The position numbers were made by a program, and so were the translations under genes. From positions 1 through 21,144 of IMG/VR virus record IMGVR_UViG_3300006789_000223: 21,144 nt of DNA; one strand, written 5' to 3'. The notes beneath the pieces are model-generated. The model worked only from the letters and a program-made list of their open reading frames with translations, did not search any database and was not told where the DNA came from. Below, one piece after another: positions 187 to 19,842 of the stretch; position 1 is the stretch's first letter; each line of letters starts with the position of its first letter. Source of the DNA: a virus.

Positions 187-785
187 TTCATCTCCTCCTC
201 ACATGTTCCACAAATCAGTTTCGTTTCGGGTTCTGCTGTAGCTTTTACACCACAACCACATTTGAAAGTCTTCCTCTTGGCTCTGACCTTCTTCTCTTTC
301 GGTTCTCCCTTCGCTTCGCACCATTCGAACTGATGCTTCAAAGGTTTCCAGTGTTCCTCATATACTGTGTCGAACCTGCCTCCTTCCTCGATGTAATGGC
401 TGACCCTCGTCCCTGTCTTCTTACCGCCAGGAAGGCCGGTTGAACTCGGTATGAGACCAACCTTCCGCATCATCTTTCCCCACTCAGAATTGTGGTGAGC
501 GATGTTCTTCGGGATCTTCTTACCTGTCGTCAGATGTTGCAGGTGACACATCTCATGGACCAGTGTGGAGATTATATCTTTGTCCTTTCGCTGCATCGTC
601 TCAGGTGTTAGTGCGATCTCATGCAGTACCTTTCCCGTTTTCTTCTCTTGGAACGCTTTGTGATGGTAGTAACCATGAGCTCCCCTATGTCGATGAACCA
701 GGATAACACACTTCGTCAACTGTCCATAAAACAACTTCATGTTGAACAGGTCGAACGCTCGATCCAATATCTCAGTCGCCTGCAC
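183..785 (-). CDS. SprT-like zinc metalloprotease-fold protein with C-terminal zinc ribbon
   Basis: This is a 200-aa SprT/Spartan-like protein. The zinc-binding HEMCH (HExxH) lies at about residues 77-81 in the context LVHEMCHLQHL, followed by a downstream His/Trp region (HHNSEWGKMM) typical of SprT domains. The last 30 residues carry a CGCG...CGTC zinc ribbon, as in SprT-family proteins. Eukaryotic Spartan cleaves DNA-protein crosslinks; the role of phage SprT-like proteins is not established, so protease activity is inferred from the motif only. The start is GTG with GGGAGA 6 nt upstream. The start overlaps the end of the primase-helicase gene by 14 nt, so the two are probably translationally coupled. 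The replication-gene context fits a role in DNA-protein processing. Confidence 0.85.
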   Translation of the reverse strand: MQATEILDRAFDLFNMKLFYGQLTKCVILVHRHRGAHGYYHHKAFQEKKTGKVLHEIALTPETMQRKDKDIISTLVHEMCHLQHLTTGKKIPKNIAHHNSEWGKMMRKVGLIPSSTGLPGGKKTGTRVSHYIEEGGRFDTVYEEHWKPLKHQFEWCEAKGEPKEKKVRAKRKTFKCGCGVKATAEPETKLICGTCEEEMK

Positions 786-3018
786 TGTCTTCTCCCAACA
801 CTCTGGTCATCAGTTTGTAAACGCGGTCAGTGAGTTTATACGAGACCGTTCCCCGTTTCTTTATTCTACCAGATTTGGATTTCTCAGAGTCGCTTACCTT
901 ACGAACGACCTTAATGGAACGCATGAACCGAATCAGCTTCCTTATCTCTGACTCTGTTGCGTTCACTCTGTTATACAGAGTCTTCATGTTTAACCCTGTG
1001 TCCTGTTCTGCGAACAACGTCTGAGCGATATCGTAGGTCCTACCCTTCGAAGTATCCACCGTCACACGACGTGTCACATCCCAGGAACGCTTGGAGATCT
1101 CTGTTTCCCCTACTGATGCAGCAGCACAACACGCCATCCGCAGGAACTGATGGGTCAGTCTTGTGGGGAGTTCTTTGGTGTCATTGCTTTCCTTCTTCTC
1201 TTCGGGATTCGGTCTTGCTCTAAAGTCTGCCCCAAACTCACCGAAGTCCATACACTGTTCGAACAGTTCTTCCTCATCTACTTTCAACCGTTGGATAAGT
1301 TTCTCGGCATTGTCTCTCAAGTAGCTGACGTATCCACCTGTCAGTTGGTATGCTTCAGTCATCTTACTTTCAGTGAGTGTCTTATCGACTGCACAGCTTG
1401 TCTGCATCACAGAGGTCAAGGCTGAACGAGCAACAGCACGTTGAATCATTCTTCTTTCTGCATGTTCGGGAGTTGCAATACAAACACGCAGGAACCTGTC
1501 CCCCAACCTGCTCTGATCGCTGTCCATCAGTGTTGGTGTACCGGCAATGATCCAAGGCGTTCTCAACCCTGTGTACCTGCTGTCCTCTTTCTGGTTCTTG
1601 AATGATGCTCCAGACGTACCGTCAAAGATCCTTCTTTGCTGCGACATAATCTGAGCGAAGTTGGGAGACGACATCAACACGTCTCCTTCAGGCGTTATCA
1701 ATGTCTTCCTATCGATACGAGCAATCAGAGAATAGTCCTCACCGTCTTCACCTTTCCAACCAGAATGGAACCCTGTGAGATGTTCCAGAGCGTGACAGGT
1801 TGGCGACGTTAGGAACGCATCACAGAAACGAGTCTTCCCCGAACCAGCATCACCTATTACCTGCAGGAAAAGTTGATCGCCAAGTTGCTCAGTCGAGATC
1901 ACGACAGCGAGCATCGATATCAGAACGTGCTCCAGATCCTCTCGCCACCGGAAGCACGCTTTCCAGGCGTCCAGAACCTGCTGGAAATCGTTACACTCCC
2001 GCGTTTTATCTTTGCGGGTTTTCTTGCCCTTCTGGAGCCATTCTTCTGGCAACCCACCCAACCTGCTGCGTAGAGCATTAAAACGCCTTAAACGGCCTCC
2101 CAGAGCCTTTGAGGAGCCTGTTTCGGGTTTGTTTAGCAGGGAAATCGGTTGCAGACCAGAACTGTGTCCATTTTCGAACGGTTCCGGCGATATCTTCCCC
2201 GTTATTACGTCGCGAACGTCTGCCCCACTTTCGACCTCCAGATCATAACCAGAGTCCCCCCACTTCAGCACCTGCAGATCCTCTGGAGGTTCCTGGCAGT
2301 TCGACAACTTCGATCCGACGAACTTAACACCGACAACCCCTCCCTTCAGAGTGCCATCCTCTTTGGGATGGTCATTATCGAACCACAGAACCACCTCAGA
2401 ACCACCAGTCAATTTCGTCCATGGATCTTTGAAAGTTGTAACTCCGGGTAACCCAATCACATTCCGGTTGACCAATCCAAGTTCATACACTTCTGCCATT
2501 GATGCCAGATCCCAAACACCTTCAACGATATCCACCTTCCTTATCTTTGAGTTGAACATGTTCAAACCGAACATGGCAGCACCTAACCCCGGAGTTGGAT
2601 ACGCAATCCTACCCTGTCCAAAATCTGCGTACCGATACAACTGGGTCATCTTCAGGTCAGCATTGTAACCAGGAATCAACCAGTGCTGTCCGTCGAACGC
2701 TAACTCCAACTTTCTAATCACATCGACGCTGACCAACTTTCTATCAACTCGCAACTGTTCCCGATGAAAATCTGTCGTCATGTCCAACATCTTCTTATGG
2801 AACAGACGGATGAAGCTACTTGCGTTCATACCTGTTCCACTCTCGCTGATGTTACATGACCAGCAGCGAGCAACACCAGTGTCAGTTCTCACATAGAAAC
2901 TATGACTCCCACAGAAAGGACAATCCACCTTTTGATCTTCTTCATACCAATCCAACTCTACTCCATGGAACGTATAGGGTCTCAGGTTCTCCGGTTGCTT
3001 CTCAGTCCGTTTAGGCAT
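772..3018 (-). CDS. Bifunctional DNA primase-helicase (zinc finger, Toprim-like region, P-loop ATPase)
   Basis: This 748-aa protein would prime and unwind at the phage replication fork. An N-terminal primase-type zinc ribbon (CPFC ... CWSC, residues 33-55) is followed by a Toprim-like region with IVEGVWD near 165 and LWFDNDHP near 212. A P-loop ATPase follows with Walker A GDAGSGKT near 389-396. A candidate Walker B (RKTLITPEGD) lies near 440. The C-terminal 150 residues are basic and may bind DNA. The helicase part does not look like the T7/DnaB RecA fold to me and is closer in style to D5/DUF3987-type primase-helicases; that placement is uncertain. I chose the internal ATG giving MPKRTEKQ over an upstream in-frame start, because the upstream zinc-ribbon gene stops inside this start (ATGCCTAA) and MPKR recurs in neighbouring genes. 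Confidence 0.88.
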   Translation of the reverse strand: MPKRTEKQPENLRPYTFHGVELDWYEEDQKVDCPFCGSHSFYVRTDTGVARCWSCNISESGTGMNASSFIRLFHKKMLDMTTDFHREQLRVDRKLVSVDVIRKLELAFDGQHWLIPGYNADLKMTQLYRYADFGQGRIAYPTPGLGAAMFGLNMFNSKIRKVDIVEGVWDLASMAEVYELGLVNRNVIGLPGVTTFKDPWTKLTGGSEVVLWFDNDHPKEDGTLKGGVVGVKFVGSKLSNCQEPPEDLQVLKWGDSGYDLEVESGADVRDVITGKISPEPFENGHSSGLQPISLLNKPETGSSKALGGRLRRFNALRSRLGGLPEEWLQKGKKTRKDKTRECNDFQQVLDAWKACFRWREDLEHVLISMLAVVISTEQLGDQLFLQVIGDAGSGKTRFCDAFLTSPTCHALEHLTGFHSGWKGEDGEDYSLIARIDRKTLITPEGDVLMSSPNFAQIMSQQRRIFDGTSGASFKNQKEDSRYTGLRTPWIIAGTPTLMDSDQSRLGDRFLRVCIATPEHAERRMIQRAVARSALTSVMQTSCAVDKTLTESKMTEAYQLTGGYVSYLRDNAEKLIQRLKVDEEELFEQCMDFGEFGADFRARPNPEEKKESNDTKELPTRLTHQFLRMACCAAASVGETEISKRSWDVTRRVTVDTSKGRTYDIAQTLFAEQDTGLNMKTLYNRVNATESEIRKLIRFMRSIKVVRKVSDSEKSKSGRIKKRGTVSYKLTDRVYKLMTRVLGEDSAGD

Positions 3019-3181
3019 GACGCTTGTTTTCTCTTGGGATGTTAATGTACTTGGATCGATGAGCCTGTTTGTCACAGGTGTTGCAAATTCTATTGGAAGA
3101 ACTTTTGGACCTGAACTCTCTCTGACACTTCAAACAGAATCGCTGAGCAGTTCCTGTTTTGGAATAATTTCTATCTGACAC
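3011..3181 (-). CDS. Tiny zinc-ribbon protein (56 aa)
   Basis: This short gene encodes a basic 56-aa protein with two CxxC pairs (CLKC and CNTC, about 15 residues apart), the pattern of a single zinc ribbon. It starts at GTG with a strong GGAGAGG upstream (6 nt spacing). It ends 8 nt inside the primase-helicase start, as ATGCCTAA, so it is probably coupled to it. It also overlaps the end of the upstream 53-aa gene by 52 nt in another frame. The sequence resembles small phage nucleic-acid-binding zinc ribbons, but no specific family can be named. Its position beside the primase suggests a replication accessory or regulatory role; this is inference. Confidence 0.68.
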   Translation of the reverse strand: MSDRNYSKTGTAQRFCLKCQREFRSKSSSNRICNTCDKQAHRSKYINIPRENKRHA

Positions 3182-3291: not shown

Positions 3292-3896
3292 GACTCATCT
3301 ATTTCTGCAGGCTCTCCAAACCCTGAGTTGTTAAACATCAAAGCGTCTTCCCGGTTAGCTTCGTCCATACAACGCTGATTAGATTCTCGCAACTGTTCCA
3401 GGGTGACAGTACCTTCAAGATTTTTATCAACTGTGAAAATCTCTTTGGTTGGATCAGTGAGGTCGTTCCAGGACGGTCCTGGCTTTGTCAGGTCCAACGC
3501 TGGTCCACCATACTCTGCGATCATCTGCTGCAGAACCTCAACACAGTACATCAGCTCATCATTCGTCGGAGCATTACTGAACAGAATCCGCAGCAGACAC
3601 ATTTCATTCGTGTCCACCCGATTCTCCCGATAGAACTTGGTTTCCACTAGGTGGTTCAGCGTTAGAATCCCAGGACGAGGACCAAAGGGTTCACCTTTTT
3701 CGTTCTCGAGGATCTTCTGAACGAAGTGCAGAGCCTTCTCCAGATCCTGCCTCCCGTTCTTCTTTCGATGTCGGAGGATGTACTTCGTTGCACATGCTTC
3801 CAGGTACGGAAGACGAAGCATCTCCACCAGATCCCAGTGCTGAAAATTGCTCTGGTAATGTTCGCCACCGATTTGAGTTTCATTTACTTCAGTCAT
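3288..3896 (-). CDS. DUF3310 family protein (phage nucleotide-metabolism associated)
   Basis: This is a 202-aa protein. Its N-terminal 60 residues match the DUF3310 pattern: IGGEHYQ, then a helix around WDLVEML, then EACATKYILRHRKKNG and DLEKALHF. DUF3310 proteins are widespread in phages, are often annotated as nucleotide kinase-like or MazG-associated, and commonly sit near thymidylate-synthase genes; their reaction is not established. The C-terminal 120 residues are not recognised. I start at the ATG at 3896, because GGAGG lies 7 nt upstream and the ATG overlaps the stop of the ThyA-like gene (ATGACTGA). The longer in-frame extension to 3968 lies entirely within that gene. Coupling to the ThyA-like gene supports a deoxynucleotide-pool role. 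Confidence 0.8.
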   Translation of the reverse strand: MTEVNETQIGGEHYQSNFQHWDLVEMLRLPYLEACATKYILRHRKKNGRQDLEKALHFVQKILENEKGEPFGPRPGILTLNHLVETKFYRENRVDTNEMCLLRILFSNAPTNDELMYCVEVLQQMIAEYGGPALDLTKPGPSWNDLTDPTKEIFTVDKNLEGTVTLEQLRESNQRCMDEANREDALMFNNSGFGEPAEIDES

Positions 3897-5010
3897 TGTT
3901 CTTCCTCCAATTGGTTTCTCGTTTATCGATCCAGTTCTCACACACAAACTTCCAGTCATCACAGTCAATCCGGCTCAGGTATTCTCTGGACCTGAAATAC
4001 TCTCTAGCTTTATGACACTTGAAAGCATTCATCGCCGGTTGAACAACATAGCTTATGTAATCACTATCGTAATGAGAGCAGCAAACTTCCATGCTCCCAT
4101 TGACAAGTACAAATTCCTGCAGGTCGTCTTCCGAAATGTCGTCCATTGCAAGTGGATCATGATGAACAACATCTTCAACTCCGCTGTACTCGTCCCTCAA
4201 CAGAGCATCAGCATCAAACCCGCTGTTGTTCTCTGTGTAGATATGAAGATTGTTCGACGTGTGATACTGTCGCCCAACCTTGACGCCGATTCTGTTCGCC
4301 ATGTATTCGAGCAGGAAACTGAAGTGGACCACGTTCGCTCCAAGCAATCCCCAGATCAGATCATTGCTTCGGTTGTAGATATGAATGTCCAGATATTCAA
4401 TCGGTCTGGCACTGTCCACCGTTCCGCTTCCCCTTCTCTCCTGTCGAATTGAAAACAGTGCGGAGAGGTTGCACGGAACGTCTTTGCCTCCATGAGTTGC
4501 AACGTACAAATCAGAACAGTCGGTGAACGGTGTTCGTTCAGTCGGTCCAGAATTACCTTCAACGTCTGGTCCATGCGACCAGGCATCTCCACCATCCCAC
4601 ATCGAGAGAACACAGCGACGTGACGTTGGATCTTTCTGCAACTCTGCAACGATCAGATCAAGTTGATCGTATCCAAACCAGTTCTTCCAACGGTATCCGT
4701 ACGCTCCATGGAATGTTGTTCCATCGTCGCTGTACTGCTTCATCTGACTGTTGTACAGATCCAGGGATGCAACGTCGTTATTTCCTGCCAACATCCAGAA
4801 AGATTCGAACAGATGAAAGAAACTATTTGCGTCTCTCGTTTGATTAAACAAAACCCGATTTCTCGGATTATTAAAACAGACTGTCACAGGTTCCTGAACC
4901 TGAAGGACTTTCCCGTTCCGGCTGGATCTTTCATTGGTTGGAATAGTTCCGTCTTGAATACTTTTTATCAATCCATGGAACGCAGTGTTAACGCTGTCAA
5001 ATTTGAACAT
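3889..5010 (-). CDS. Thymidylate synthase / dUMP hydroxymethylase-family enzyme
   Basis: This 373-aa protein of the ThyA superfamily would methylate or hydroxymethylate a deoxypyrimidine monophosphate using methylene-THF. Visible motifs are FHLFESFWMLAGNNDV (62-80), YSDDGTTFHGAYGYRW (93-108), the phosphate-binding RRCVLSMWD (131-139), the catalytic Cys in DVPCNLSALF (Cys180), YNRSNDLIWG (212-221) and GANVVHFS. An Asn in GANVV probably corresponds to the uracil-selecting Asn of ThyA, where dCMP hydroxymethylases carry Asp, so dUMP is the likely substrate. It is about 100 residues longer than E. coli ThyA, from an insertion before the catalytic Cys and a C-terminal extension. The ATG at 5010 overlaps the HNH stop as TAATG; an upstream TTG is less likely. 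Whether the product is dTMP or 5-hydroxymethyl-dUMP cannot be decided here. Confidence 0.85.
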   Translation of the reverse strand: MFKFDSVNTAFHGLIKSIQDGTIPTNERSSRNGKVLQVQEPVTVCFNNPRNRVLFNQTRDANSFFHLFESFWMLAGNNDVASLDLYNSQMKQYSDDGTTFHGAYGYRWKNWFGYDQLDLIVAELQKDPTSRRCVLSMWDGGDAWSHGPDVEGNSGPTERTPFTDCSDLYVATHGGKDVPCNLSALFSIRQERRGSGTVDSARPIEYLDIHIYNRSNDLIWGLLGANVVHFSFLLEYMANRIGVKVGRQYHTSNNLHIYTENNSGFDADALLRDEYSGVEDVVHHDPLAMDDISEDDLQEFVLVNGSMEVCCSHYDSDYISYVVQPAMNAFKCHKAREYFRSREYLSRIDCDDWKFVCENWIDKRETNWRKNND

Positions 5011-5510
5011 TAAATATGTCTCCAAGTTGATCGGTTTATGATACTTCGAATAGCTTGTTCAAAAACTCCAAACTCTTTTGCTAATGCTTTGATCCCATCA
5101 ACAGGATCTCTGATCTTCAACTGTCTGCCCTCATATCTTGATCGAATTTCCAACACTTGTTTCTCAGTAAACTTTGAAAGGTGTTGTGTCTCTCCCTGTG
5201 CTTGTCTACCTTTGGAAACTTTGTCATCAATGTTGTCTTGTGTCGTTCCCAGAAATAAATGATCAGGGTTCACGCACTTTTTGTTGTCACAACTGTGGCA
5301 AACAATTTGACCCTTTGGAATCTTTCCTTTTGTCAAAACGAAGGCCATCCGATGTGCTCTGGTTTCACTACCTCGGAATTGACCATATCCAGAACTGTAG
5401 AGTCCTCCCGACCATTCCCAGCATCCTTCGTCTGTCTTTTGCACGTAGGACCAGAACCTATCGTCCTCGCTTGCATTGTACCGCTCTTTGAACGTCATTT
5501 TCGAAACCAT
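5010..5510 (-). CDS. Freestanding HNH homing-type endonuclease
   Basis: This is a 166-aa HNH endonuclease. The nuclease core runs from RAHRMAFVLTKGKIP through the metal-binding CHSCDNKKCVNPDHL. A C-terminal helix-turn-helix-like module follows (TEKQVLEIRSRY ... LAKEFGVFEQAIRSIIN), the layout of many phage HNH_3/NUMOD-type homing enzymes. No group I intron is apparent around it, so it is likely a freestanding mobile endonuclease inserted upstream of the ThyA-like gene, a common homing location in phages. The start at 5510 is chosen because AAAGGAAC lies 6 nt before the ATG; longer in-frame GTG starts lie in the promoter region. It is the first gene of this leftward unit. Confidence 0.85.
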   Translation of the reverse strand: MVSKMTFKERYNASEDDRFWSYVQKTDEGCWEWSGGLYSSGYGQFRGSETRAHRMAFVLTKGKIPKGQIVCHSCDNKKCVNPDHLFLGTTQDNIDDKVSKGRQAQGETQHLSKFTEKQVLEIRSRYEGRQLKIRDPVDGIKALAKEFGVFEQAIRSIINRSTWRHI

Positions 5511-5538
5511 TTGGGTTCCTTTCGGGGTAAATCGACCA

Positions 5539-5544
5539 CCTATA
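5539..5544 (-). promoter_or_regulatory. Possible -10 element for the leftward HNH-thyA-primase unit
   Basis: TTGTTATAGG on the minus strand resembles the GTTATAAT/GTTATACT elements seen elsewhere in the window and lies about 28 nt before the HNH start codon. No convincing -35 box is visible. The assignment is tentative. Confidence 0.3.
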
Positions 5545-5614
5545 ACAAATTGTACCAAAGAAAATTGGTTCCGTTTCGCCAATGAAAACACAGGGTTACC
5601 AGAGGATCTTCAAA

Positions 5615-6466: not shown

Positions 6467-6493
6467 CCCCGTCTTTACAGGCGGGGATTTTTT
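6467..6493 (+). terminator. Rho-independent terminator of the rightward unit
   Basis: CCCCGTC-tttaca-GGCGGGG forms a 7-bp stem (one G-U pair) followed directly by ATTTTTTA on the plus strand. It closes the two-gene rightward unit. Its T-run overlaps the stop codon of the convergent radical-SAM gene. Confidence 0.85.
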
Positions 6494-7457
6494 ACGTCTT
6501 GGATTCCCAGTCTCGCAACACAGGTTCCGTGTAAGATCTGCCAGCACAGGCTTCCTCAATAATGACCAAATCGGACTCAGATGGACCGCTGAGCTCCTGC
6601 TTTCCCATCTTATCTGGTAAGAGACCTGTCCGGTAAGAAGCAGCGTCACATCCATCACAGGGACCGAAGTCTCTTTGACCGTTGTACAGTTTCTTCCGTG
6701 CTGCCACGAACTCTGGACCGTTCCAGATCTCTTCAATCCCTTCGTCGACTGCGTATCCACACTTGTACACTCCACGCCAGTCATTACAGCAAATTGCGAC
6801 ATTCCCATCCCACCGGATCGACATCTCCCTGAACGGTTTCGCACAACGCTTCCCTTGGAGTCTGTCGTTCTTTGGAGCTCCTGCTCCTGCATGGTTGTTC
6901 AGGGTTGCATGGTTGCCACTGGTTGCAGAGTCGATGTCCTTAATGACAACCAGCAACCGCTCAGAGGGTTTCCGTCTCTTGTGGGGATTCGCTGTCTTAT
7001 CTTTCGGATAGTACCGGACATCATGCTTCCCTTCGTACCGTTTAAGAATCCTGGGAACGATCTTGATACCATCATATGAATCCAGAGCCAACACGTTCAC
7101 CGATTCAAGAACCTGATCAACCAGAGTAATGTCCGACAGAAATCCATATCCGTTACTGGTCATCATCATGTGGTGATTGGGAAGTCTGCTTCGAAACTTC
7201 CTGAGGACCGTGTCCAACTTTCTGTGAGCAGACGGTTCGCCGTGCATAGCAAATTCAAGACGAGGATTCCAACCAAGTTCTGCAATCTGATCAGCAATAT
7301 CTTCAGCATGTCTCAGAGACATCTGCTTGAACTCGTTTTCCTTACCTCGAATGCCGTTCAAACCGCAGAAGGAACATCGTAGGTTACAACCTTCCACCAG
7401 TTCTATCTGAAGGCAAAACGGAGATTCCTGCTGCACTGGTTTTGATCTTTTCGGCAT
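6492..7457 (-). CDS. Radical SAM/SPASM-domain protein
   Basis: This is a 321-aa radical-SAM enzyme. The CNLRCSFC motif (CxxxCxxC, residues 24-31) binds the [4Fe-4S] cluster that cleaves SAM. MHGEPSAH resembles the GGE motif region. The C-terminal third has a SPASM-like set of cysteines (KRCAKPF, ICCNDW, YKCGY, GPCDGC) for auxiliary clusters. The start at 7457 gives MPKRSKPVQQ and overlaps the previous stop as TAATG; an in-frame extension to 7541 would overlap that gene widely and is rejected. It is the last gene of the tight cassette with the aGPT-PPlase-like protein, two glycosyltransferases and the ParB-like protein. Radical-SAM enzymes occur in phage thymidine hypermodification pathways, so DNA-base chemistry is the favoured role; peptide modification is the alternative. 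Confidence 0.88.
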   Translation of the reverse strand: MPKRSKPVQQESPFCLQIELVEGCNLRCSFCGLNGIRGKENEFKQMSLRHAEDIADQIAELGWNPRLEFAMHGEPSAHRKLDTVLRKFRSRLPNHHMMMTSNGYGFLSDITLVDQVLESVNVLALDSYDGIKIVPRILKRYEGKHDVRYYPKDKTANPHKRRKPSERLLVVIKDIDSATSGNHATLNNHAGAGAPKNDRLQGKRCAKPFREMSIRWDGNVAICCNDWRGVYKCGYAVDEGIEEIWNGPEFVAARKKLYNGQRDFGPCDGCDAASYRTGLLPDKMGKQELSGPSESDLVIIEEACAGRSYTEPVLRDWESKT

Positions 7458-7696
7458 TAGTCTTCCTTCACTTCTGGGAGTGTGTCGTGTTCCATTCTGT
7501 CGCCTAACTTTACAAGAGCCTGAGCGAATCCTTTCTTCCACTCTTCAAACTCTTTTCTGGAGAGCCTGATTTGCAGGTTCCTAAAATTCACATGGTACTT
7601 GTGTCCGCTGGTTTTGTAGATCTCGATCCGGTTAGCATGTCGGTCACACGATTCCGGTATGATCTTTGAGTAAACTCGTTTTGCCACCTTAGCCAT
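7457..7696 (-). CDS. Small hypothetical protein of the modification cassette (79 aa)
   Basis: The protein begins MAKVAKRVYSK and is Lys/Arg-rich. It reads as a compact beta-then-helix domain (RIEIYKTSGHKYHVNF, then SRKEFEEWKKGFAQAL). The ATG at 7696 overlaps the stop of the ParB-like gene and has GGAGG 9 nt upstream; a TTG two codons earlier is less likely. Its stop overlaps the radical-SAM start as TAATG, so it is locked between the two and probably works with them, perhaps as an accessory subunit. No family is recognised. Confidence 0.72.
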   Translation of the reverse strand: MAKVAKRVYSKIIPESCDRHANRIEIYKTSGHKYHVNFRNLQIRLSRKEFEEWKKGFAQALVKLGDRMEHDTLPEVKED

Positions 7697-8279
7697 TTGC
7701 AAACGCCTCCGCTAAAATTTTGAAATCAGTTATTCCAAGTCCCAAACGATATCGTCCAGCCTTACCCCAATGGAGATGGATGTTCTCTCGAAATTCCAAC
7801 CTTAGACTTTCTCCATTATACAGATATTGAATCTTCCCTCCTCGCTTTTGGCTCTTGTCGTCTTCTCCATATTCAACTGCTTTGGTGAAGGAACTGTAAG
7901 GTTGTCCTCCACTTTTACATGTTATCTTCCTGCCATCATACCAGAACTGCTTACCCATGTCCTCCGGCTCGCAGACAAAGCATTCAAGCATCGTCATACC
8001 TGCTGCACGCATTCCGAGGATGCGTTTGAACCCGTCCAACTTCTTGAATCTGCCGTTCGGTTCTCTACGGAGTAAAGGAGGCAGAATCTTGGTTCCTCGC
8101 TCTGCCAGTTCTCGGATGTATTCGATACCGTCCAGATGTTCCTGCAGGGTTTTCCCGTCTGTCTTACTCACCCGAACCAACTCTCCATTTTCATCTGGAA
8201 AATGATATCCACGGCCTCCTTGTAATTCTCCCTTGGAGTAAACGTCTATCAACTCCTCTGGAACAAACTCACGTCTCAT
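7689..8279 (-). CDS. ParB/Srx-fold-like protein
   Basis: This 196-aa protein has a ParB-type N-terminal core. ILPPLLRREPNGRFKKLDG and FKRILGMRAAGM (residues 65-95) fit the family pattern of an isoleucine-proline strand followed by dG.hRh.a....G. The C-terminal half holds a CFVCEPED segment and a beta-rich stretch ending in GRYRLGLGI. ParB/Srx-fold domains include nucleotidases, kinases and CTPases. No partition locus or HTH is present, so chromosome-type segregation is unlikely. The start overlaps the GT-A gene by 11 nt, with GGAAGGA upstream. A catalytic accessory role in base modification is suggested by position only. Confidence in the fold is moderate. Confidence 0.65.
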   Translation of the reverse strand: MRREFVPEELIDVYSKGELQGGRGYHFPDENGELVRVSKTDGKTLQEHLDGIEYIRELAERGTKILPPLLRREPNGRFKKLDGFKRILGMRAAGMTMLECFVCEPEDMGKQFWYDGRKITCKSGGQPYSSFTKAVEYGEDDKSQKRGGKIQYLYNGESLRLEFRENIHLHWGKAGRYRLGLGITDFKILAEAFANG

Positions 8280-8982
8280 TATTAACGTCCTTCCATAATT
8301 TTTTGAATTGGATTACAGGTCTTCCATTGCTTTTCTTGGAAACGTATCCAGGCCACAACCTAACCAAATTGTCCACGTCTTGTGAAGGATCTTTTCTCCA
8401 CTCGCTGCATCCTCCTTTTGCGTTCTCTTTCTCTGCGTGAGAAAACATGCAAGTCACAGCGGAAGTGCCTCCTTGGCTGATTAGTTGAAGGTTGAAGTCG
8501 TGGTCTTCGCTTGTCTCCAGTCTGTATTTTAGGTTTTCAGGGTTTGGAATTCTGTCCCGGTTAATAACGACCACTCCGCCGACCTTAGCAATGATCTTCC
8601 ACCTGTCGGGTGATCTGTTCCACATGAATCTGGGATGGGTTCCAGAGATTCCATGGAGGTCGCTTAGTTCGTTACACTCTTCCAGGAGCTCTCGGAAATC
8701 GAAGTCACTGGTTGTTTTTCCATTGGGCAACCGCTTGGAGAATCTAAGATCGTCGTCCATCATCATTACTTTCCCTTCCTTGGAAAATTTATTGTAAATG
8801 AATTGACGCTTCCCTCTAATCCCCTTACCTCGGAACAGAGTAAAATTTGAGAAACCCTCTGGAATGTCTGCCTTGGAGTTACCTACAAGGATGGGACTTA
8901 TACCAACCTCCAAAAAGGTGTTCAAGGTTTTCTGATTGTCCCTTCTTTTGAAGGTCGGGATAACGTAAATCATGTCACCCAT
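8269..8982 (-). CDS. GT-A fold glycosyltransferase (TET-associated/DNA-modification type likely)
   Basis: This is a 237-aa GT-A-like glycosyltransferase. It opens with a nucleotide-binding strand and loop (IYVIPTFKRRDNQKTL) and carries MMMDDDLRF at residues 73-81, the metal/UDP-sugar DxD site. Further on is TSEDHDFNLQLIS (157-169), similar to the EDxDF segment of phage TET-associated glycosyltransferases, which act on hydroxymethylated DNA bases. That subfamily call is inference. ATGGGTGA overlaps the GT-B stop, and a near-perfect GGAGGTGAT sits 6 nt upstream, the best ribosome site in the cassette, so high expression is likely. Glycosylation of a virion or host component is the alternative. 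Confidence 0.75.
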   Translation of the reverse strand: MGDMIYVIPTFKRRDNQKTLNTFLEVGISPILVGNSKADIPEGFSNFTLFRGKGIRGKRQFIYNKFSKEGKVMMMDDDLRFSKRLPNGKTTSDFDFRELLEECNELSDLHGISGTHPRFMWNRSPDRWKIIAKVGGVVVINRDRIPNPENLKYRLETSEDHDFNLQLISQGGTSAVTCMFSHAEKENAKGGCSEWRKDPSQDVDNLVRLWPGYVSKKSNGRPVIQFKKLWKDVNNET

Positions 8983-9946
8983 ACATCACCTCCAAGTATC
9001 TCGGAACAGTAACCTCGGGAGCGTGGAATTTCAACGCTGTCTTACCGTTCCGAACGATTTCGTCAGTCGGAATATTAGAAGTCAATACTTCTTTCAATTC
9101 GTGTTCGTCTTCAACTGCGACACAGTTAACCCCAGACACCATCTCATCTCCATCGATAATCCACTCGGAGTTAACGACCTGTACACAACCAGCGTCCCAC
9201 GCTTCCATGAACGTATACTGAGAGCCTCCACCGTCGTTCTTGATTACAGACAGGTCCACCGCGTATTTCTTTGGTAGGAGAATCTCAACGGACCTGTACA
9301 GATTGTCCTTTGGAAACTTGGTTGGTGATGCTCCACCGACGCTGATTACTTTTGCCCATTCTGGATACTTGTCCTTCAGATAGAATCGGGCATAACTTGT
9401 ATGACCAAAACCATGGATAGCAATCTTCCGCTTCATTAACCGATTGCATTTCAGAACCAATTCAAACCGTTTGTCCGAGTCGATTCTGGATATGGTTGCT
9501 GCTCCACGCTTCTCTTCAGGTAGGAAGAATCCAGAGGGAACGAACGGATGTTGGATAAACTTTCCATATCGTTTGTTCACCCTACGGATCACGATTGTTC
9601 TTTCCTTGGGGGACTTGAAGTATTTGTCTTCCCCCGGATCGTGCTTAACTATCCAAGCACCTCCTTCCAACATTGCAATCGTTTTGTCCTTGTAACGACC
9701 ACCAGCAGCAGTGATGAGGCTCTTCCCTCTCACCTTCAGTGCATCTTCCAAGCACAGGTTCTGATACTGCACTCCGTAACCAAAATCCCGCAACTTGTTT
9801 TCAGTTCTGTTGCCGATCTTGAACAGATTGGATCTCACTCCCATTGCTTCGAACGATTTCATCAAGTGAGTTGTGTACGTCGCCCATCCACCATACGGAT
9901 TGTGAGATAAGTAAAACAAATTAAAAATCGGAGTTCGTTTCGGCAT
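8975..9946 (-). CDS. GT-B fold glycosyltransferase (GT4-like)
   Basis: This is a 323-aa glycosyltransferase of GT-B type. An N-terminal acceptor-side segment SHNPYGGWATYTTHL (14-28) resembles the GG.. loop of GT4 enzymes. The C-terminal donor-binding segment DGGGSQYTFMEAWDAGCVQVV (238-258) matches the E-x7-E/EA..G pattern, and SEWIIDG follows. The start giving MPKRTPIF (9946) is preferred over the ATG one codon earlier: AAGGG is then 6 nt upstream, the start overlaps the preceding TGA as TGATG, and MPKR recurs in this genome. It lies between the aGPT-PPlase-like gene and the GT-A gene with overlaps on both sides. Two different glycosyltransferases in succession suggest stepwise addition of two sugars. 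Confidence 0.8.
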   Translation of the reverse strand: MPKRTPIFNLFYLSHNPYGGWATYTTHLMKSFEAMGVRSNLFKIGNRTENKLRDFGYGVQYQNLCLEDALKVRGKSLITAAGGRYKDKTIAMLEGGAWIVKHDPGEDKYFKSPKERTIVIRRVNKRYGKFIQHPFVPSGFFLPEEKRGAATISRIDSDKRFELVLKCNRLMKRKIAIHGFGHTSYARFYLKDKYPEWAKVISVGGASPTKFPKDNLYRSVEILLPKKYAVDLSVIKNDGGGSQYTFMEAWDAGCVQVVNSEWIIDGDEMVSGVNCVAVEDEHELKEVLTSNIPTDEIVRNGKTALKFHAPEVTVPRYLEVMYG

Positions 9947-10947
9947 CATGTTCCCTTTCTGTATTTTCTCTTGGACCGGCCTTGATCAAACAGGACACGT
10001 TCAAACTTATCGTACTCACAAAGCGAGTGTTCAATCTCCCGCATCTCAAACCGCTTCATCCCTTTAAGTTTTTGAACTTTGTTGAATTCATTGCGTAACA
10101 CCATAAACTGTTTCAACCAATCGGCAGGAGGTTTCGGACGAGCATCCTTCATGCCTGACTTTGGTACTTTGATCTCCTGCCCACTAAGACGCATCAATCC
10201 TCTCGATGCTCCAGGTCCGAGATTACTCCACGTGTTGATGTCGGTAGCGTCTTCCAGCAGTGCTGTATACCGCAGATCACAGACAACCTCATAAGACATG
10301 AAGCCTCCAAGGTGCGGGAACTGCTTCAACTCAGAGTACAGAGCCTCCATGCTGTTCTCGTCTTTACAGACCTTGACCAGTCGCTTACGTGCCTTCCAGA
10401 CGTTCGTGATAGCTTCGCAGACGTTCGGCACTTTACATCCCCGTGGACCGTTACCTGCCTTGATCATGTAGGCTCCAGTGAACACAGGACCGCTCTCATT
10501 AGCTTTTGCGATCACTCGGGTTGCAAGTTTCGGTTTCCACTGTATGTGAAAACCGTGCTTCAAAAACAGTAATCCAGTCGGATCTGGTTTGTTGAACCAC
10601 CGGAACGCAACAGTCGCAAACAAAACTTCATCCATGTCACGCATCGGTTCTCGGATGTTCTCTCTGAACCAGACAGTGACGCGGTCATTCTCTCGGTAAG
10701 GATTGGTGAAGAATTCTGTCTGGAGAATGTGGTCCACCGTCCACGGCGGATCCAGCTTCTGTTTCTTAGCCTTCACATAGATGTTGTGACGCTCCTTAAT
10801 CCAATAGAAGAATCGTTCCTTCGGCGTCATTCTCACAACGGAGTACATTCTGTTGACAGTCTCTTCACTCCAGGACGCAACCGGGAAGTGAGGTAACCTG
10901 TTCAATAGGTACGCTCGTTTGGATTTTCTTACTTTTCGTTTAGGCAT
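9946..10947 (-). CDS. Alpha-glutamyl/putrescinyl thymine pyrophosphorylase (5-hmdU DNA kinase helical domain) family protein
   Basis: This 333-aa protein belongs, by motif recognition, to the aGPT-PPlase clade found in phages with hypermodified thymine. Key segments are TPKERFFYWIKERHNIYVK (41-59) and WTVDHILQTEFFTNPYREN plus DRVTVWF (69-94), the hallmark W(T/S).D.IL....F.N.YRE.DRV block. A third is LFATVAFRWFNKP, and GPGASRGL lies in the C-terminal half. The family is linked to phosphorylation or pyrophosphorylation of 5-hydroxymethyl-dU in DNA before further substitution; the exact activity of this member is unknown. It begins MPKRKVRKSKR, with AAGGAAC upstream, 9 nt after the DNA polymerase gene. 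It is the first gene of the overlapping cassette with two glycosyltransferases, ParB-like and radical-SAM proteins. Confidence 0.8.
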   Translation of the reverse strand: MPKRKVRKSKRAYLLNRLPHFPVASWSEETVNRMYSVVRMTPKERFFYWIKERHNIYVKAKKQKLDPPWTVDHILQTEFFTNPYRENDRVTVWFRENIREPMRDMDEVLFATVAFRWFNKPDPTGLLFLKHGFHIQWKPKLATRVIAKANESGPVFTGAYMIKAGNGPRGCKVPNVCEAITNVWKARKRLVKVCKDENSMEALYSELKQFPHLGGFMSYEVVCDLRYTALLEDATDINTWSNLGPGASRGLMRLSGQEIKVPKSGMKDARPKPPADWLKQFMVLRNEFNKVQKLKGMKRFEMREIEHSLCEYDKFERVLFDQGRSKRKYRKGT

Positions 10948-10956
10948 GTTGGTTCC

Positions 10957-13218
10957 TTAAAGTGCCAATCCTTTTGACCAGTTGTCGGCATGTCGGTCAA
11001 GACCACAAGTCAAGACCACTCCAATGTCCTCTCCTATACTTTCCATCGCTCTACGAACTGCCATGACTTTCGGTTTGTTGGTGTCTCGCTTCCCTTTCGG
11101 TTTCGGGAAGTCCAGAACAATTTCGTCATGGATATTCATAATCATTTTGTACTGCGGTTCATCGAATCCTTCGTTCCAGATGTCGAGCAACTCCTGAACC
11201 TTTATCATAGCACGCATTAGAACCCAACAGGCGGTCCCCTGAACGTGGTAGTTCAACGGCACTGTTTCGACTACGTTGTTCCATCTCCCACGCTTACACC
11301 TGATAGGATAACCTTTGTCCGGGTCAATCGCTTTGTCGATCAGAGTTTCAACGTATCCATGTTTCTTTGCGTACTCAATATATCTTCTGTTGAGTTTTCC
11401 TTTTTCGGTTAGTCTTTGAGAAATAATCGACTGAGCTCCGGGAACATGGAACGCACGATCTGCCGTACCATTTCCATCTCCAGTGTCAACCGCTCCATAC
11501 TGGTCCGCGAAGTTTCCATTCTTTGTTCTTCCATACCATGAAGGGTTCTCATCCTTGGCTCGGAGTAAACCATCGGGATCCTCTGCATCATATTTGTCTG
11601 GATGCAGAATTGAGAAGATGAGGAGGTGATAACTCCCGAAGCATGGTCCTTTGTCTGGATGCTCGAATAGCTCAAGCATCGCAGGTTCCTGGCACTCATA
11701 AGCGGGGATACGCAGTTCCAGATTGTCGTAGTCAAGGGCGAACCATTCCCGTCCTGGTAAGGGACCGAAGATGTATCGAAGATTCCTTCCATTGTGATCT
11801 TTCTGTTTTGAGATTACCTGCTGACTGGGATTGTGACTTGCCCAACGAAGCGTATCCGTTCCGCATGGGTTCAGGGAGGGGTTGAGTCTAAACCATCGAC
11901 TGGACTTTCCGACCTTCCTGTTGTACCTCAGATAACTTTGGATGTACTCTAAGGACTTTCCAAGTTTCCTCTTGACCCTCAGTGCATCAATGAACTCTTT
12001 CTGGTCTGTTCCTTCTTCCAGCGTGTCTTCATAAATTGACATCGCTGCTTTGTTGGTACTGGGGTCACCTGTCTTCTTACTTGTTGCGACAATGGGAAGA
12101 TCCAACCATGAACCTGCTGTTCTTCTGTTGAGACATTTCTCGGAACAGTACAGTCTTCCATTCAGATCTGTCCAGCGAGCCAATCCACGTTCAGTCTTCG
12201 GTCGTTTCTTATTGCAGAGATGACAACCCGTGATCCCATCACCTTTGAAGTTCGGTTCATATCCAAAGCAGAAATTCTTCAGACTGTCGTTGTTCGGTCC
12301 CTTAGGAATATCCAGTAGGTAATCGTACCGATCAGCAACTGCTTTCAAGATTTCGTCGGATGTCTTTACGTGTTCGGTGTAGTCATCTTTGAGTTCGTTT
12401 AACCTGTCGAGATTGAACGTCATACCGTTGTTCTCCATCTGGTAAACAATCGGCAAAATTCGCATCCTCTCCTCAAAGATCTTCACCAACTTTCTGTCCT
12501 GCAGAATCTCCCACATCATCTGCCAGATAGGAAGCGTGACCGCTGTGTCGCTGTTGGCATAAGCAGAGCAGACAGATGACCACGGGTGAGCCTCTGGCTC
12601 ATCCCCTGCGTTCCAGTTATCCAAAATAGGTAGTAAATCTGGCCTGAGGCGTACAATCGCTCTGGGAAGCCACATATCAGCCTTCCAATAGCTCTCATTT
12701 TCGGTCCCTCGCTTCGTCCCTGCTGCCCCACTTTTCACAGAAGGCATATCGGGCATATTTGGAGCAGCTATTCGCCATTCAGGGAGGTAACGTTTACAGA
12801 TCGTTCGTGCTGCATTGGTTGCAGTCTTCACCCGATCTTCAAACGGTTGCACGTCGACCGAAAGATACTCCAGAGTCAGCGACGTTAGATCATGTGGAGT
12901 GTTCGTGCTTAGAAGATGAGAGGCGATCAGTGTGTCCCTTGTCCGACTCCATTCCCACTGATCGCCTAGATCCTTCCGTACCGTTTGAATCGCCTTTACA
13001 TCGAAGACAGGATTGTGAAAGCAGTTCCAGTCATGCTCTTCCAACAGTTCTTCGAACTCATCGAGATCTTCTTCAAGAACTATTGGGTTCCGTGTAAGTG
13101 GATCAACGTGCCACTCCCAAAACTTCTGTTCATTGTTCTCATCGCAGGTGGTAATCAGGTAAGGTTTAGCACCATGATGTAAGTCTATCCCAGTGGTTTC
13201 TGTGTCAATTGATATCAT
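10957..13218 (-). CDS. Family-A DNA polymerase with 3'-5' exonuclease and an unusual zinc-finger insertion
   Basis: This is the 753-aa replicative polymerase. The exonuclease has Exo I SIDTETTG (D5, E7), Exo II FHNPVFD and Exo III YANSDTA (D224). Polymerase motif A is LDYDNLELR (near 495-503), motif B RTKNGNFADQYG (564-575, Phe at the ddNTP-discrimination position), and motif C NIHDEIV (near 697). Between LKNFCFG and WLDLPIVATSKKTGDPST, in the thumb region, lie about 50 extra residues with CHLC (332-335) and CSEKC (358-362), apparently a zinc finger. There is no 5'-3' exonuclease. The start is supported by AGGAACCCGATG. It sits directly upstream of the base-modification cassette, so the modified base may be made from a precursor that this polymerase incorporates. 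Confidence 0.93.
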   Translation of the reverse strand: MISIDTETTGIDLHHGAKPYLITTCDENNEQKFWEWHVDPLTRNPIVLEEDLDEFEELLEEHDWNCFHNPVFDVKAIQTVRKDLGDQWEWSRTRDTLIASHLLSTNTPHDLTSLTLEYLSVDVQPFEDRVKTATNAARTICKRYLPEWRIAAPNMPDMPSVKSGAAGTKRGTENESYWKADMWLPRAIVRLRPDLLPILDNWNAGDEPEAHPWSSVCSAYANSDTAVTLPIWQMMWEILQDRKLVKIFEERMRILPIVYQMENNGMTFNLDRLNELKDDYTEHVKTSDEILKAVADRYDYLLDIPKGPNNDSLKNFCFGYEPNFKGDGITGCHLCNKKRPKTERGLARWTDLNGRLYCSEKCLNRRTAGSWLDLPIVATSKKTGDPSTNKAAMSIYEDTLEEGTDQKEFIDALRVKRKLGKSLEYIQSYLRYNRKVGKSSRWFRLNPSLNPCGTDTLRWASHNPSQQVISKQKDHNGRNLRYIFGPLPGREWFALDYDNLELRIPAYECQEPAMLELFEHPDKGPCFGSYHLLIFSILHPDKYDAEDPDGLLRAKDENPSWYGRTKNGNFADQYGAVDTGDGNGTADRAFHVPGAQSIISQRLTEKGKLNRRYIEYAKKHGYVETLIDKAIDPDKGYPIRCKRGRWNNVVETVPLNYHVQGTACWVLMRAMIKVQELLDIWNEGFDEPQYKMIMNIHDEIVLDFPKPKGKRDTNKPKVMAVRRAMESIGEDIGVVLTCGLDRHADNWSKGLAL

Positions 13219-13855: not shown

Positions 13856-14941
13856 TTAGAACGGTACTCCATCGTCCATGAGTTTGCTCCATGGAACTTT
13901 GGTATACGTTCGGTCTCCCTTGACAGCCTTCAGGTCAACTGTCTTCGCTCGCTTCAGCAACTTAGTGACTGACACCTCAATCGCCTTCTTAGCTTTCGGA
14001 GGTTTGAAAGTGTAGATGGAACCCTTCACAGGTGTGAGATCTTCTTTCTCGTCATCGTCGTCGCTGTCTGCAGCACGGATAGCTTTGACCAGTGTTCCCC
14101 AGTCGGGATACTTGTCGTCGTCTTCGTGGTCGCTAATGCCTGCTGCTTCAGCCAATGCTGCCAACTTATCCTGAGCATCTGTGTCCTCGTCATCTGCTTT
14201 CTTCTGCAGACTATCAAGGTCGTCCCCGTCATCTGAGGATTCTTCGCTGTCATCTTCGGCGTCGTCGTCCTCTTCCGGGGGATCTTCATCGTCGTCAGAA
14301 TCGTCCTCATCTGTGTCGTCGTCGACATCATCATCGTCATCATCGTCGTCGCTGGAATCTTCCTCGGTTTCGTCGACACCATTGAACTGAACGTTGACCC
14401 GAGCGTTCGGATACTGTTCATTGGGATCGCCCATCCACGTTCGAAACTTAACTCCAAGTCCCGATTCAACGACTGCTTCAAACAGTTCGTTCATTTCCTC
14501 TTCATCGCCCTCCAGATCATCGGTACTGATACCGAATGCCTGCAGTACCTGAACCATGAACAACATGTGTTCATCTTCAGTCTTACGCTTTCGGGTTGGA
14601 GTGTCGTGCAACGGTTCCATGATGATGGTGTCAGACAGACCAACACAATCCACAGTTCCAAGATCCGTTTCGACAACATCCCCGTCCTCAAACTTCTTGG
14701 AGAATGCTTCGCAGGTCTTTGGAGCAGTACAGACGCCCCGGACCATGAAGTATTGTTCTCCCTTAGCATTTCCGTTCTCGTAAGTACCGATCTTCATGGA
14801 AGTAACGGTTGCTTTCCCGTAGTCGATTCCAGCAGGGAAACCAGAACCTCCTCCAAGGTCAAGTTTCTGTTCTTTCTTCCCATGTTTCTTCAACGATTTG
14901 ATCGCTGAAGGTTTCAGAAAGCTAGTTCCTTTTTTCGCCAT
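13856..14941 (-). CDS. Probable ssDNA-binding/recombination accessory protein with long acidic region
   Basis: This protein of about 361 aa has three parts. A basic start (MAKKGTSFLK ... KKHGKKEQK) leads into a domain of about 160 residues (25-190). Then comes a very acidic Asp/Glu/Ser tract at about 190-300, written in DNA as a long GAC/GAT/GAG-type triplet-rich stretch. A basic C-terminal segment ends MDDGVPF. That tail resembles the DDxxPF tip that SSB proteins use to dock partners, and the gene is next to a Sak4-like ATPase and a PD-(D/E)XK nuclease, as phage SSB or DUF669-type partners often are. The SSB assignment is inference; I see no definite OB-fold signature. A TATAAT element lies upstream in the 78-nt gap. 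Confidence 0.6.
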   Translation of the reverse strand: MAKKGTSFLKPSAIKSLKKHGKKEQKLDLGGGSGFPAGIDYGKATVTSMKIGTYENGNAKGEQYFMVRGVCTAPKTCEAFSKKFEDGDVVETDLGTVDCVGLSDTIIMEPLHDTPTRKRKTEDEHMLFMVQVLQAFGISTDDLEGDEEEMNELFEAVVESGLGVKFRTWMGDPNEQYPNARVNVQFNGVDETEEDSSDDDDDDDDVDDDTDEDDSDDDEDPPEEDDDAEDDSEESSDDGDDLDSLQKKADDEDTDAQDKLAALAEAAGISDHEDDDKYPDWGTLVKAIRAADSDDDDEKEDLTPVKGSIYTFKPPKAKKAIEVSVTKLLKRAKTVDLKAVKGDRTYTKVPWSKLMDDGVPF

Positions 14942-15019: not shown

Positions 15020-15874
15020 TTAGTCGTCCATGGCCTCCAACAACTTTTCAAACGTTGGATTGACCATGATCGGGTCCAACTTTTTGCCTCTCGGTTTTCT
15101 GAACTTTGTCATACGATCTTCCGACAATGGAAGATAAGCACAGAACTCAGTCTCACCTGTCTTTCTGGATTTGGTTATGGTCTTACCGGCAACTTTCACC
15201 TCCCTTTCTTCTCTACAGTCTCGGGAAAACATCTGGATATTGAAGTCGAGTGTTCCTGTCAGCCATCCTGCAATAGTCGGCGTCACTGCCGGACCTGCTT
15301 TGGCTACTCCTAACTCACTGTCCTCCTTGGGAGCGAAGACACGCTCATGAGAAATGATCGTCGTGAACAGAGGCAGTTCAATCAGGCATCGTAAGAATCC
15401 CTTCATCAACGATCCATGCTTCTGCCACTGCTGCTGTTGAACGTCTCCCCACGCAAGCTGAGGCTTCACTCGATCCACTCCAAGAATCTGTGCCAGTACA
15501 AGATCCGAGAAGGACGTGAGATGGTCCAGCGAAACTGTCTTGAACTCGCTGTCCACCAGTTCTTCACAGAGGGCTGGCAACTGTTCGCAATCCTCGATGA
15601 CAATCTGCTTGATGTGCTTCCGGTCTGCTTTCGCAATCGACCGAAGCTCCCCCGGTTTCTTAATTCCGCCGGAACACGTCATCATGAGGATCGGTTTCGG
15701 GAATGTGCTCGTCACTGTCGTTTTACCAGTCGCAGGAAGACCAAAGATTCCCATGGAAAAGGGATCGTCTTTGTCAAACTCAACTGCTTTCGCTCTGGAC
15801 AGGAGAGATCCTGTCTCCGCTGGAGGCTTCTTTCGGGTTCTGGTTTTCTTGACCTGTCGTGTCACTTTGGGCAT
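15020..15874 (-). CDS. Sak4-like RecA-fold ATPase (AAA_24 family), recombination
   Basis: This 284-aa P-loop ATPase carries Walker A GLPATGKTT (45-53). A strand ending KTVSLDHL acts as Walker B, and TTIISHERV is probably a sensor strand. The size and sequence style match phage Sak4/AAA_24 proteins, RecA-core single-strand annealing or recombination ATPases that cooperate with the phage SSB. The SSB-like gene follows and a PD-(D/E)XK nuclease precedes, a typical recombination trio. The N-terminus is a strongly basic MPKVTRQVKKTRTRKKPP tail not needed for the ATPase fold. It has its own promoter-like TGCTATAAT and an AAAGGAAA ribosome site. Confidence 0.82.
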   Translation of the reverse strand: MPKVTRQVKKTRTRKKPPAETGSLLSRAKAVEFDKDDPFSMGIFGLPATGKTTVTSTFPKPILMMTCSGGIKKPGELRSIAKADRKHIKQIVIEDCEQLPALCEELVDSEFKTVSLDHLTSFSDLVLAQILGVDRVKPQLAWGDVQQQQWQKHGSLMKGFLRCLIELPLFTTIISHERVFAPKEDSELGVAKAGPAVTPTIAGWLTGTLDFNIQMFSRDCREEREVKVAGKTITKSRKTGETEFCAYLPLSEDRMTKFRKPRGKKLDPIMVNPTFEKLLEAMDD

Positions 15875-18808: not shown

Positions 18809-19266
18809 CGTTTCGTCCTCAGCTTTCTGTAGAGTTGAGACCGTGCTTTGCTGGTCTTGTGTTCGTCTATTGTAGCCTGAGATGCTCCCCAAGATCGCAA
18901 CCACGAAACCTGTTCCGCTTTCTTCAGAGTGTTGAACCTCTTCATCAGTTGTGTCGCTCCTACGGGATGTAGAATCCCTGTGTCTTCCTGCTCAAGATAA
19001 TCCGCCATGTTATGCAGCACTTGGACAAGGTCTTCATTCGTGCATACACAGCGAGTCTTGAAGAAGTTCTCCACTTTCCCCAGCAAAGAGTTTCCCTGTC
19101 GAGAAACAACACCCCGAATCATGCCGTTGATATGATCGTGGTCCACCACCGGATCGATTTCTTCGTGACCAAGGATGGGACAGGTCTCTGGGACGTTCTC
19201 CTGCCTCCATTTCTTCATCGCTGCCTGTGTTAGATACCTGGGGAGTCGCTTCTTCCGTTTGGGCAT
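18805..19266 (-). CDS. Recombination endonuclease VII-like (His-Me finger) resolvase
   Basis: This is a 153-aa protein with the endonuclease VII His-Me core: VVDHDHINGMIRGVVSRQ and the helix GNSLLGKVENF (41-68), where D42, H43, D44, H45 and N59 form the metal/catalytic block. A CPIL ... CVC set of cysteines may bind zinc. The T4 enzyme resolves branched DNA before packaging, and this one likely acts on recombination or replication junctions with the Sak4/nuclease set downstream. The C-terminus is helical and basic. The start at 19266 (MPKRKKRLPRY) overlaps the csrA stop as TGATG, with AGGAGG upstream. Confidence 0.88.
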   Translation of the reverse strand: MPKRKKRLPRYLTQAAMKKWRQENVPETCPILGHEEIDPVVDHDHINGMIRGVVSRQGNSLLGKVENFFKTRCVCTNEDLVQVLHNMADYLEQEDTGILHPVGATQLMKRFNTLKKAEQVSWLRSWGASQATIDEHKTSKARSQLYRKLRTKR

Positions 19267-19448
19267 CAGCGTTCCCCCTCCTCTCGTTGAATGTCGATCC
19301 GTTCTTTGATCTCTCCACGATGAACCGTAACGTGTCTTGGAGCATCGATTCCCAACCGAACCTTGTCACCACGAACGTCAATAATGACAATCGTGATGTC
19401 ATCCCCGATTGAAATCGTTTCGTCCTTCTTTCTACTTATTACCAGCAT
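19266..19448 (-). CDS. csrA: Carbon storage regulator CsrA (phage-encoded)
   Basis: This 60-aa protein is a full-length CsrA. The first strand is MLVISRKKDETISIG, the core is DITIVIIDVRGDKVRLGIDAP, and the RNA-contacting end is VTVHRGEIKERI, with the key Arg of the VHRxEI motif kept. CsrA dimers bind GGA motifs in mRNA leaders and block or stabilise translation. AAAGGG lies 6 nt before the ATG, which overlaps the upstream gene by 17 nt; a longer reading to 19475 adds a non-homologous stretch and is rejected. Many ribosome sites in this phage contain AAGGAAC, so its own mRNAs could be targets; host mRNAs are the other option. Confidence 0.93.
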   Translation of the reverse strand: MLVISRKKDETISIGDDITIVIIDVRGDKVRLGIDAPRHVTVHRGEIKERIDIQREEGER

Positions 19449-19842
19449 GATTAACCCTTTCCAAAAGGTGTTCAACGTAACTGTCGACCATACGACAGCC
19501 TGTCACATAAAGTCTTGCAGCATTGCAGGAAGATTTCAGATCACTTTCCAGTTTGCTGATGTCGTCTTCTTCCCAACCCTTGAACGTACTTATGATCCTC
19601 GCATACTCAACCGCCTCCTGATTAGTCTTGAATGGTTTCCCTGCCAGCATACCTGTGGGAATGTGATAGACCTTCACTTTATTGTACAGAGCGATGAACC
19701 TACCAAAGCGGAGACATGTCGTCACAACTCTGTCTTCAGTCTCTGAATTATCTCTCCTCATGAACTTCGCGATCTTGGGAGTGACCTGTATCCCATCAAC
19801 TGCTCTGGTTAACTGGTCCATGAGTTTTACTTTTTTGACCAT
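19432..19842 (-). CDS. Hypothetical protein, first gene of the long leftward block (136 aa)
   Basis: This basic 136-aa protein starts MVKKVKLMDQLTRAVDG and has a central beta-rich segment (RFGRFIALYNKVKVYHIPTG) and helical C-terminal region with scattered cysteines (SSCNAARLYVTGC). I recognise no family. AAAGGAAATCGACATG gives a clear start, and an extended -10 (TGGTATACT) lies 24 nt upstream, so it is promoter-proximal and probably an early gene. It overlaps csrA by 17 nt. Confidence 0.7.
   Translation of the reverse strand: MVKKVKLMDQLTRAVDGIQVTPKIAKFMRRDNSETEDRVVTTCLRFGRFIALYNKVKVYHIPTGMLAGKPFKTNQEAVEYARIISTFKGWEEDDISKLESDLKSSCNAARLYVTGCRMVDSYVEHLLERVNHAGNK

Follow-up and report, generated by a model that had tools for sequence, protein, structure and literature searches.

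A four-cysteine, putatively zinc-binding insertion at the thumb tip of a family-A DNA polymerase from an uncultured phage

The family-A DNA polymerase encoded by an uncultured phage carries an insertion of 54 residues with four cysteines in zinc-finger spacing in the loop between the thumb-tip helices H1 and H2. We propose that this insert is a structural zinc finger that assists the thumb in holding duplex DNA and thereby raises processivity, a reading to which we give an even chance of being correct. The DNA analysed, here called the window, is the entire IMG/VR record IMGVR_UViG_3300006789_000223 of 21,144 bases; this phage fragment carries a replication block on its minus strand.

The polymerase gene (10957–13218, minus strand) is a single uninterrupted frame encoding 753 amino acids with a 3'-5' exonuclease and a polymerase domain. 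The protein matched the Pfam families PF00476 (DNA_pol_A; E = 3.6e-25, 89.2 bits at a cut-off of 34.3) and PF01612 (DNA_pol_A_exo1; E = 4.5e-8, 33.5 bits at a cut-off of 23.6). The catalytic residues of the exonuclease (D5, E7, D73, Y220, and D224) are present, as are those of the polymerase motifs A (D496/E501), B (K566/F570/Y574), and C (H697/D698/E699), and all of these except F570 were listed as invariant or near-invariant in the family alignment. An AlphaFold model built on 44 sequences reached a mean pLDDT of 90.3 and a pTM of 0.89; a weak model built on 7 sequences and its Foldseek result were set aside. The best structural match of the model was 1kln_A (Z 31.4, rmsd 3.8, 551 residues), indicating a Klenow-like overall fold, and T7 polymerase chains were also among the matches with a Z of about 28.

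The first-pass annotation had reported about 50 residues of the pattern CHLC...CSEKC between LKNFCFG and LDLPIVATSKKTGDPST, interrupting the thumb at a site that usually comprises just a few residues. This segment exists; it comprises amino acids 319–372 (GYEPNFKGDGITGCHLCNKKRPKTERGLARWTDLNGRLYCSEKCLNRRTAGSWL) and is encoded at positions 12103–12264 of the minus strand, as are the codons of its cysteines. C332 (12223–12225) and C335 (12214–12216) form a CX2C knuckle, while C358 (12145–12147) lies at the end of a predicted beta-hairpin and C362 (12133–12135) in a predicted short helix, giving a pattern of CX2C-X22-CX3C. In a profile alignment of 44 relatives to the Klenow fragment, the insert falls between LFEK and QGIKPLKKTPGGAPST (QGIK) of E. 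coli Pol I, which places it at the thumb tip. The insertion point, which we take to be after about residue 593 (K593) of E. coli Pol I on the assumption that the Klenow chain starts at residue 324, is the turn joining two small thumb-tip helices and normally has about 4 residues. Accordingly short loops were found in a comparison set of 106 phage polymerases, which came from viral contigs with cultured phages sampled only unsystematically: the median distance from LKNFCFG to LDL was 11 residues, compared to 62 in the window. The set was obtained by scans that yielded 45 loci from the family profile, followed by the addition of relatives. As most of the 106 polymerases are devoid of the insert, we rejected the possibility that it is a standard segment of the family.

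The nearest relative of the window polymerase, L002, was obtained from a different sample and is 57% identical. In L002 the insert occupies the identical site and has all four cysteines, the second pair being spaced one residue shorter (CX2C-X22-CX2C). Because of this independent relative, an assembly error or a frameshift is an unlikely source of the insert, and together with the clean reading frame the identical insert position led us to reject an artefact. The cysteine arrangement itself is rarely reached by chance, as two CX2-3C pairs occurred in 0.0125% of random 54-residue stretches with the composition of the family, and in 0.5% of draws when the whole window polymerase was shuffled. 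A second, short insertion is located in the exonuclease domain of the window polymerase (amino acids about 163–177, the SGAAGTKRGTENESY region); among the eight closest sequences it is common only to the window and L002, and residues 166–172 have a pLDDT below 50.

Between the window and L002, the insert was 58.5% identical, compared to about 46% for the surrounding parts of the thumb and 57% for the remainder of the protein. The higher identity of the insert compared to the surrounding thumb suggests that it has been kept under selection. This bears on whether the insert could lack a function, having been left behind by a mobile element as a neutral remnant or having arisen as an expansion that the loop tolerates. 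Such an origin would agree with the absence of the insert from most relatives and with the variable length of the loop, which reaches 35 residues without cysteine pairs in the polymerase L036. However, besides the conservation within the insert, none of the four cysteines has been lost in either of the two pairs of relatives compared (window/L002 and L045/L055), and no nuclease or intein-like family in Pfam matched the insert. We therefore regard a neutral origin as very unlikely. An intein or homing-endonuclease remnant was rejected, as the segment is too short and has no family match. The family as a whole does not depend on the insert, since most of the close relatives manage replication without it. 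An insert-specific search of viral contigs returned just L002 again, tblastn of the insert against cultured phages gave only two chance matches in one phage, and a scan of bacterial and archaeal genomes yielded no relative of the window polymerase.

In the AlphaFold model, the insert is predicted to consist of a knuckle region, a helix (343–347), a beta-hairpin (350–352/355–357), and a helix (360–364) bearing the last cysteine. The pLDDT was 77–86 across blocks from 331 to 360 and about 62 on either side, as would be expected if a small module were tethered by flexible linkers. The order of knuckle, hairpin, and helix with the last cysteine is that of a treble clef, and the two CX2-3C pairs of both the window and L002 are spaced within the range of about 15–30 residues typical of this fold. 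The zinc-finger layout suggested by the first-pass annotation is thus borne out by the cysteine spacing and, as far as the fold is concerned, by prediction. In Pfam, the window insert had only sub-threshold matches and reached the cut-off of no zinc family, and we therefore refer to it as treble-clef-like and outside any named zinc-finger family. The L002 insert gave a weak match to LIM (E = 0.018, below the Pfam cut-off), and among solved structures no significant match to the window insert was obtained, the best being bacterial metallothionein 1jjd (E = 3.5). Both weak matches agree with the arrangement common to the treble clefs of GATA, LIM, and SmtA, in which CX2C is followed by a hairpin and by CX2-3C at the start of a helix. 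However, those fingers sit in regulators or in metallothionein, whereas the window module is embedded in a polymerase thumb. Based on motif and model, the four cysteines probably bind one structural zinc ion.

With zinc bound, the GATA-like finger would extend the tip of the polymerase thumb, and its surface, which is mostly basic with a net charge of +6, may grip the newly formed duplex behind the primer end. Such a grip would raise processivity, as has been described for the thioredoxin-binding insert of T7 polymerase and other thumb insertions. We favour this reading because of the location in the thumb, the precedent of thumb insertions as a route to processivity, and the basic net charge. 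Of the five inserts for which the charge was computed, four had values from +4 to +8; the L022-type insert described below has a net charge of 0, and basicity is therefore not universal. The importance of the thumb for DNA binding is illustrated by E. coli Pol I, in which truncation of the thumb weakens DNA binding and lowers processivity (Minnick et al. 1996, cited in PMC10061031).

The second most likely role of the same module is to dock a replisome partner. In this case the insert would be a protein-docking site for an SSB-like protein, the primase-helicase (772–3075), or another partner, and contact with DNA would be secondary; the T7 thumb insert offers a parallel, as it binds both thioredoxin and the acidic tail of the T7 SSB. 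Docking of SSB or processivity factors at the thumb tip is known in T7 and predicted for the polymerase of a C. perfringens element (PMC7699545 and PMC10061031). A candidate partner is encoded just upstream of the polymerase (13856–14941, minus strand), a replication protein whose SSB-like nature and partner role we infer. Its middle is strongly acidic with a long Asp/Glu run, while the insert is basic. The protein matched no Pfam family above the cut-off; its gene is kept beside the polymerase in relatives. The same replication block contains a gene for a Sak4-like annealing/AAA protein (15020–15874, minus strand). However, the acidic SSB-like protein occurs in nearly all relatives with or without the insert. 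Its acidity is likewise not correlated with the presence of the insert, and we rejected an acidic partner specific to insert bearers. Docking as the primary role is, in our judgement, possible but rather unlikely.

The first-pass annotation had proposed that the insert might bind template or a processivity partner, both of which are plausible, and had also considered that it might sense modified bases. The window encodes a protein with a 5-hmdU DNA kinase-type helical domain (HMUDK_hel; PF18723, E = 3.3e-47) in the gene following the polymerase (9946–10947), a TAGT (TET-associated) glycosyltransferase (8269–8982), a radical SAM-SPASM protein (6492–7541), and a thymidylate synthase homologue (3889–5025), all on the minus strand. 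These genes form a probable thymine hypermodification cassette, and the DNA of the phage is therefore probably hypermodified, so that a module able to read, or to cope with, hypermodified template thymine might be of use to it. However, among 51 records, the kinase family was found in 28 and thymidylate synthase in 24, mostly without any insert. Conversely, two large records of 74 and 79 kb, L045 and L055, have a zinc-type insert and encode neither the 5-hmdU kinase family nor thymidylate synthase, although records may be fragments and the absence of a gene is weak evidence. In addition, the insert is located at the thumb tip, which in known family-A structures is far from the templating base. 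Since insert and modification genes show no association, sensing of modified bases is disfavoured, and we consider it the least probable of the roles weighed here.

Other genes of the window were also noted. An HNH endonuclease gene (5010–5591, minus strand; PF13392, E = 9.5e-12) adjoins the thymidylate synthase gene and is possibly a free-standing homing endonuclease. Two proteins encoded beside the modification genes (8975–9949 and 7689–8279, minus strand) had no Pfam match, the former resembling a glycosyltransferase by eye. The phage further encodes a CsrA homologue (19266–19475, minus strand; PF02599, E = 2.2e-23).

Four-cysteine modules were also found in other polymerases of the set. 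In the same loop, L045 and L055, whose polymerases are 56% identical, carry CTYCNYTKRIKHWNGEEANGEVCPKC and CPRCKYVKHVKHWNGGEAVDKHCPKC, respectively, and L022, represented by three near-identical records, carries the different module CEDCNGEGYLWNETGGGKKSCTTCFGKG. The distant L108 has CVWCKGEGCKIC slightly farther along the loop; as viral contigs yielded no further relative of L108, this insert rests on a single sequence. Altogether, six of the eight four-cysteine motifs across the 106 proteins fall in the thumb-tip loop, which accounts for 4.9% of the residues. The remaining two, CxxCxGEGCxxC knuckles, are located in a palm loop following QN[IV]SK, at amino acid 486 of L055 (L055:3977–6298) and amino acid 425 of L069 (L069:3992–6121). 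L055 and L069 belong to divergent lineages, and the palm loop appears as a second grafting site. The L022 insert (CEDCNGEG...CTTCFGKG) and the L108 insert (CVWCKGEGCKICQNTGK) follow the CXXCXGXG pattern of DnaJ and anti-TRAP; the matches stay below the family cut-off (DnaJ_CXXCXGXG, E = 0.01 for L022), and in both polymerases there is a single knuckle within a polymerase loop.

A tree was computed without the loop columns. Window and L002 formed one clade (100/99) and L045 and L055 another (100/100), placed apart from each other, and by parsimony the presence of the module required three changes. A single clade of all insert bearers was rejected by the AU test (p-AU = 7e-6), as were constrained clades of the window, L002, L045, and L055 (p = 0.025) and of the window, L002, and L022 (p = 0.0002); the tested groups were named before testing but after the tree had been seen. 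Because one clade of insert bearers was rejected, the thumb-tip loop appears to be a site of repeated grafting. One ancient gain of the module followed by many losses is formally still compatible with the tree; against it, the inserts of different lineages share no resemblance past the cysteines. We tentatively suggest, at somewhat below even chances, that a clade of uncultured phages has repeatedly grafted zinc modules of differing origin into DNA-contacting loops of the polymerase (the thumb-tip H1–H2 loop in four lineages, the palm in two), where they would serve as exchangeable built-in grips replacing an external processivity factor.

Accessory insertions at the thumb tip are already known, and in several family-A polymerases (T7, mitochondrial, and plant organellar) thumb insertions gave processivity or new activities. 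In a literature search covering few subscription journals, we found no family-A polymerase described with a zinc finger in its thumb, and the zinc version thus apparently lacks an earlier description within this literature. Polymerases that naturally have or lack small zinc modules at one defined loop suggest that unrelated folds can come to occupy the same loop time and again. Such a series would allow a direct test of whether thumb insertions confer these gains, and the modules represent ready-made parts to study how a polymerase holds on to DNA.

Of the known family-A polymerases, the window enzyme is structurally closest to the E. coli Klenow fragment, with which it shares the catalytic motifs and the alignable thumb-tip helices flanking the insert, but Klenow has just a turn (LFEK-QGIK) where the window polymerase carries its insert. 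The gene 5 protein of T7 is, like the window polymerase, a phage replicative family-A enzyme that starts with an N-terminal 3'-5' exonuclease and has an accessory insertion at the thumb tip. The T7 insert comprises about 76 residues and binds thioredoxin, whereas that of the window has 54 residues and a four-cysteine motif. The positions also differ. The T7 segment FNPSSRDHIQKKLQEAG-WVPTKYTDKGAPVVDD aligns across the window insertion point without an insertion; this comparison is based on a separate alignment, as hhalign misplaced T7 in the thumb region. The thioredoxin-binding insert precedes FNPSS and the helix FNPSSRDHIQKKLQEAG, while the window insert comes after the equivalent helix; a T7-type insertion would lie in the thumb upstream of the helix corresponding to FNPSSRDHIQKKLQ. 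We therefore rejected identity with the thioredoxin-binding domain and regard the T7 insert as a neighbour one helix upstream, a distinct insertion. According to PMC7699545, T7 and human mitochondrial polymerases engage processivity factors via thumb insertions, and lesion bypass and DNA handling are changed by lineage-specific insertions that plant organellar polymerases and human Pol theta carry in loops contacting DNA. These thumb and palm insertions act via lysine or arginine, and the passages describing them do not mention a zinc finger; unlike the window polymerase, which belongs to a phage, these enzymes work in organelles or the nucleus.
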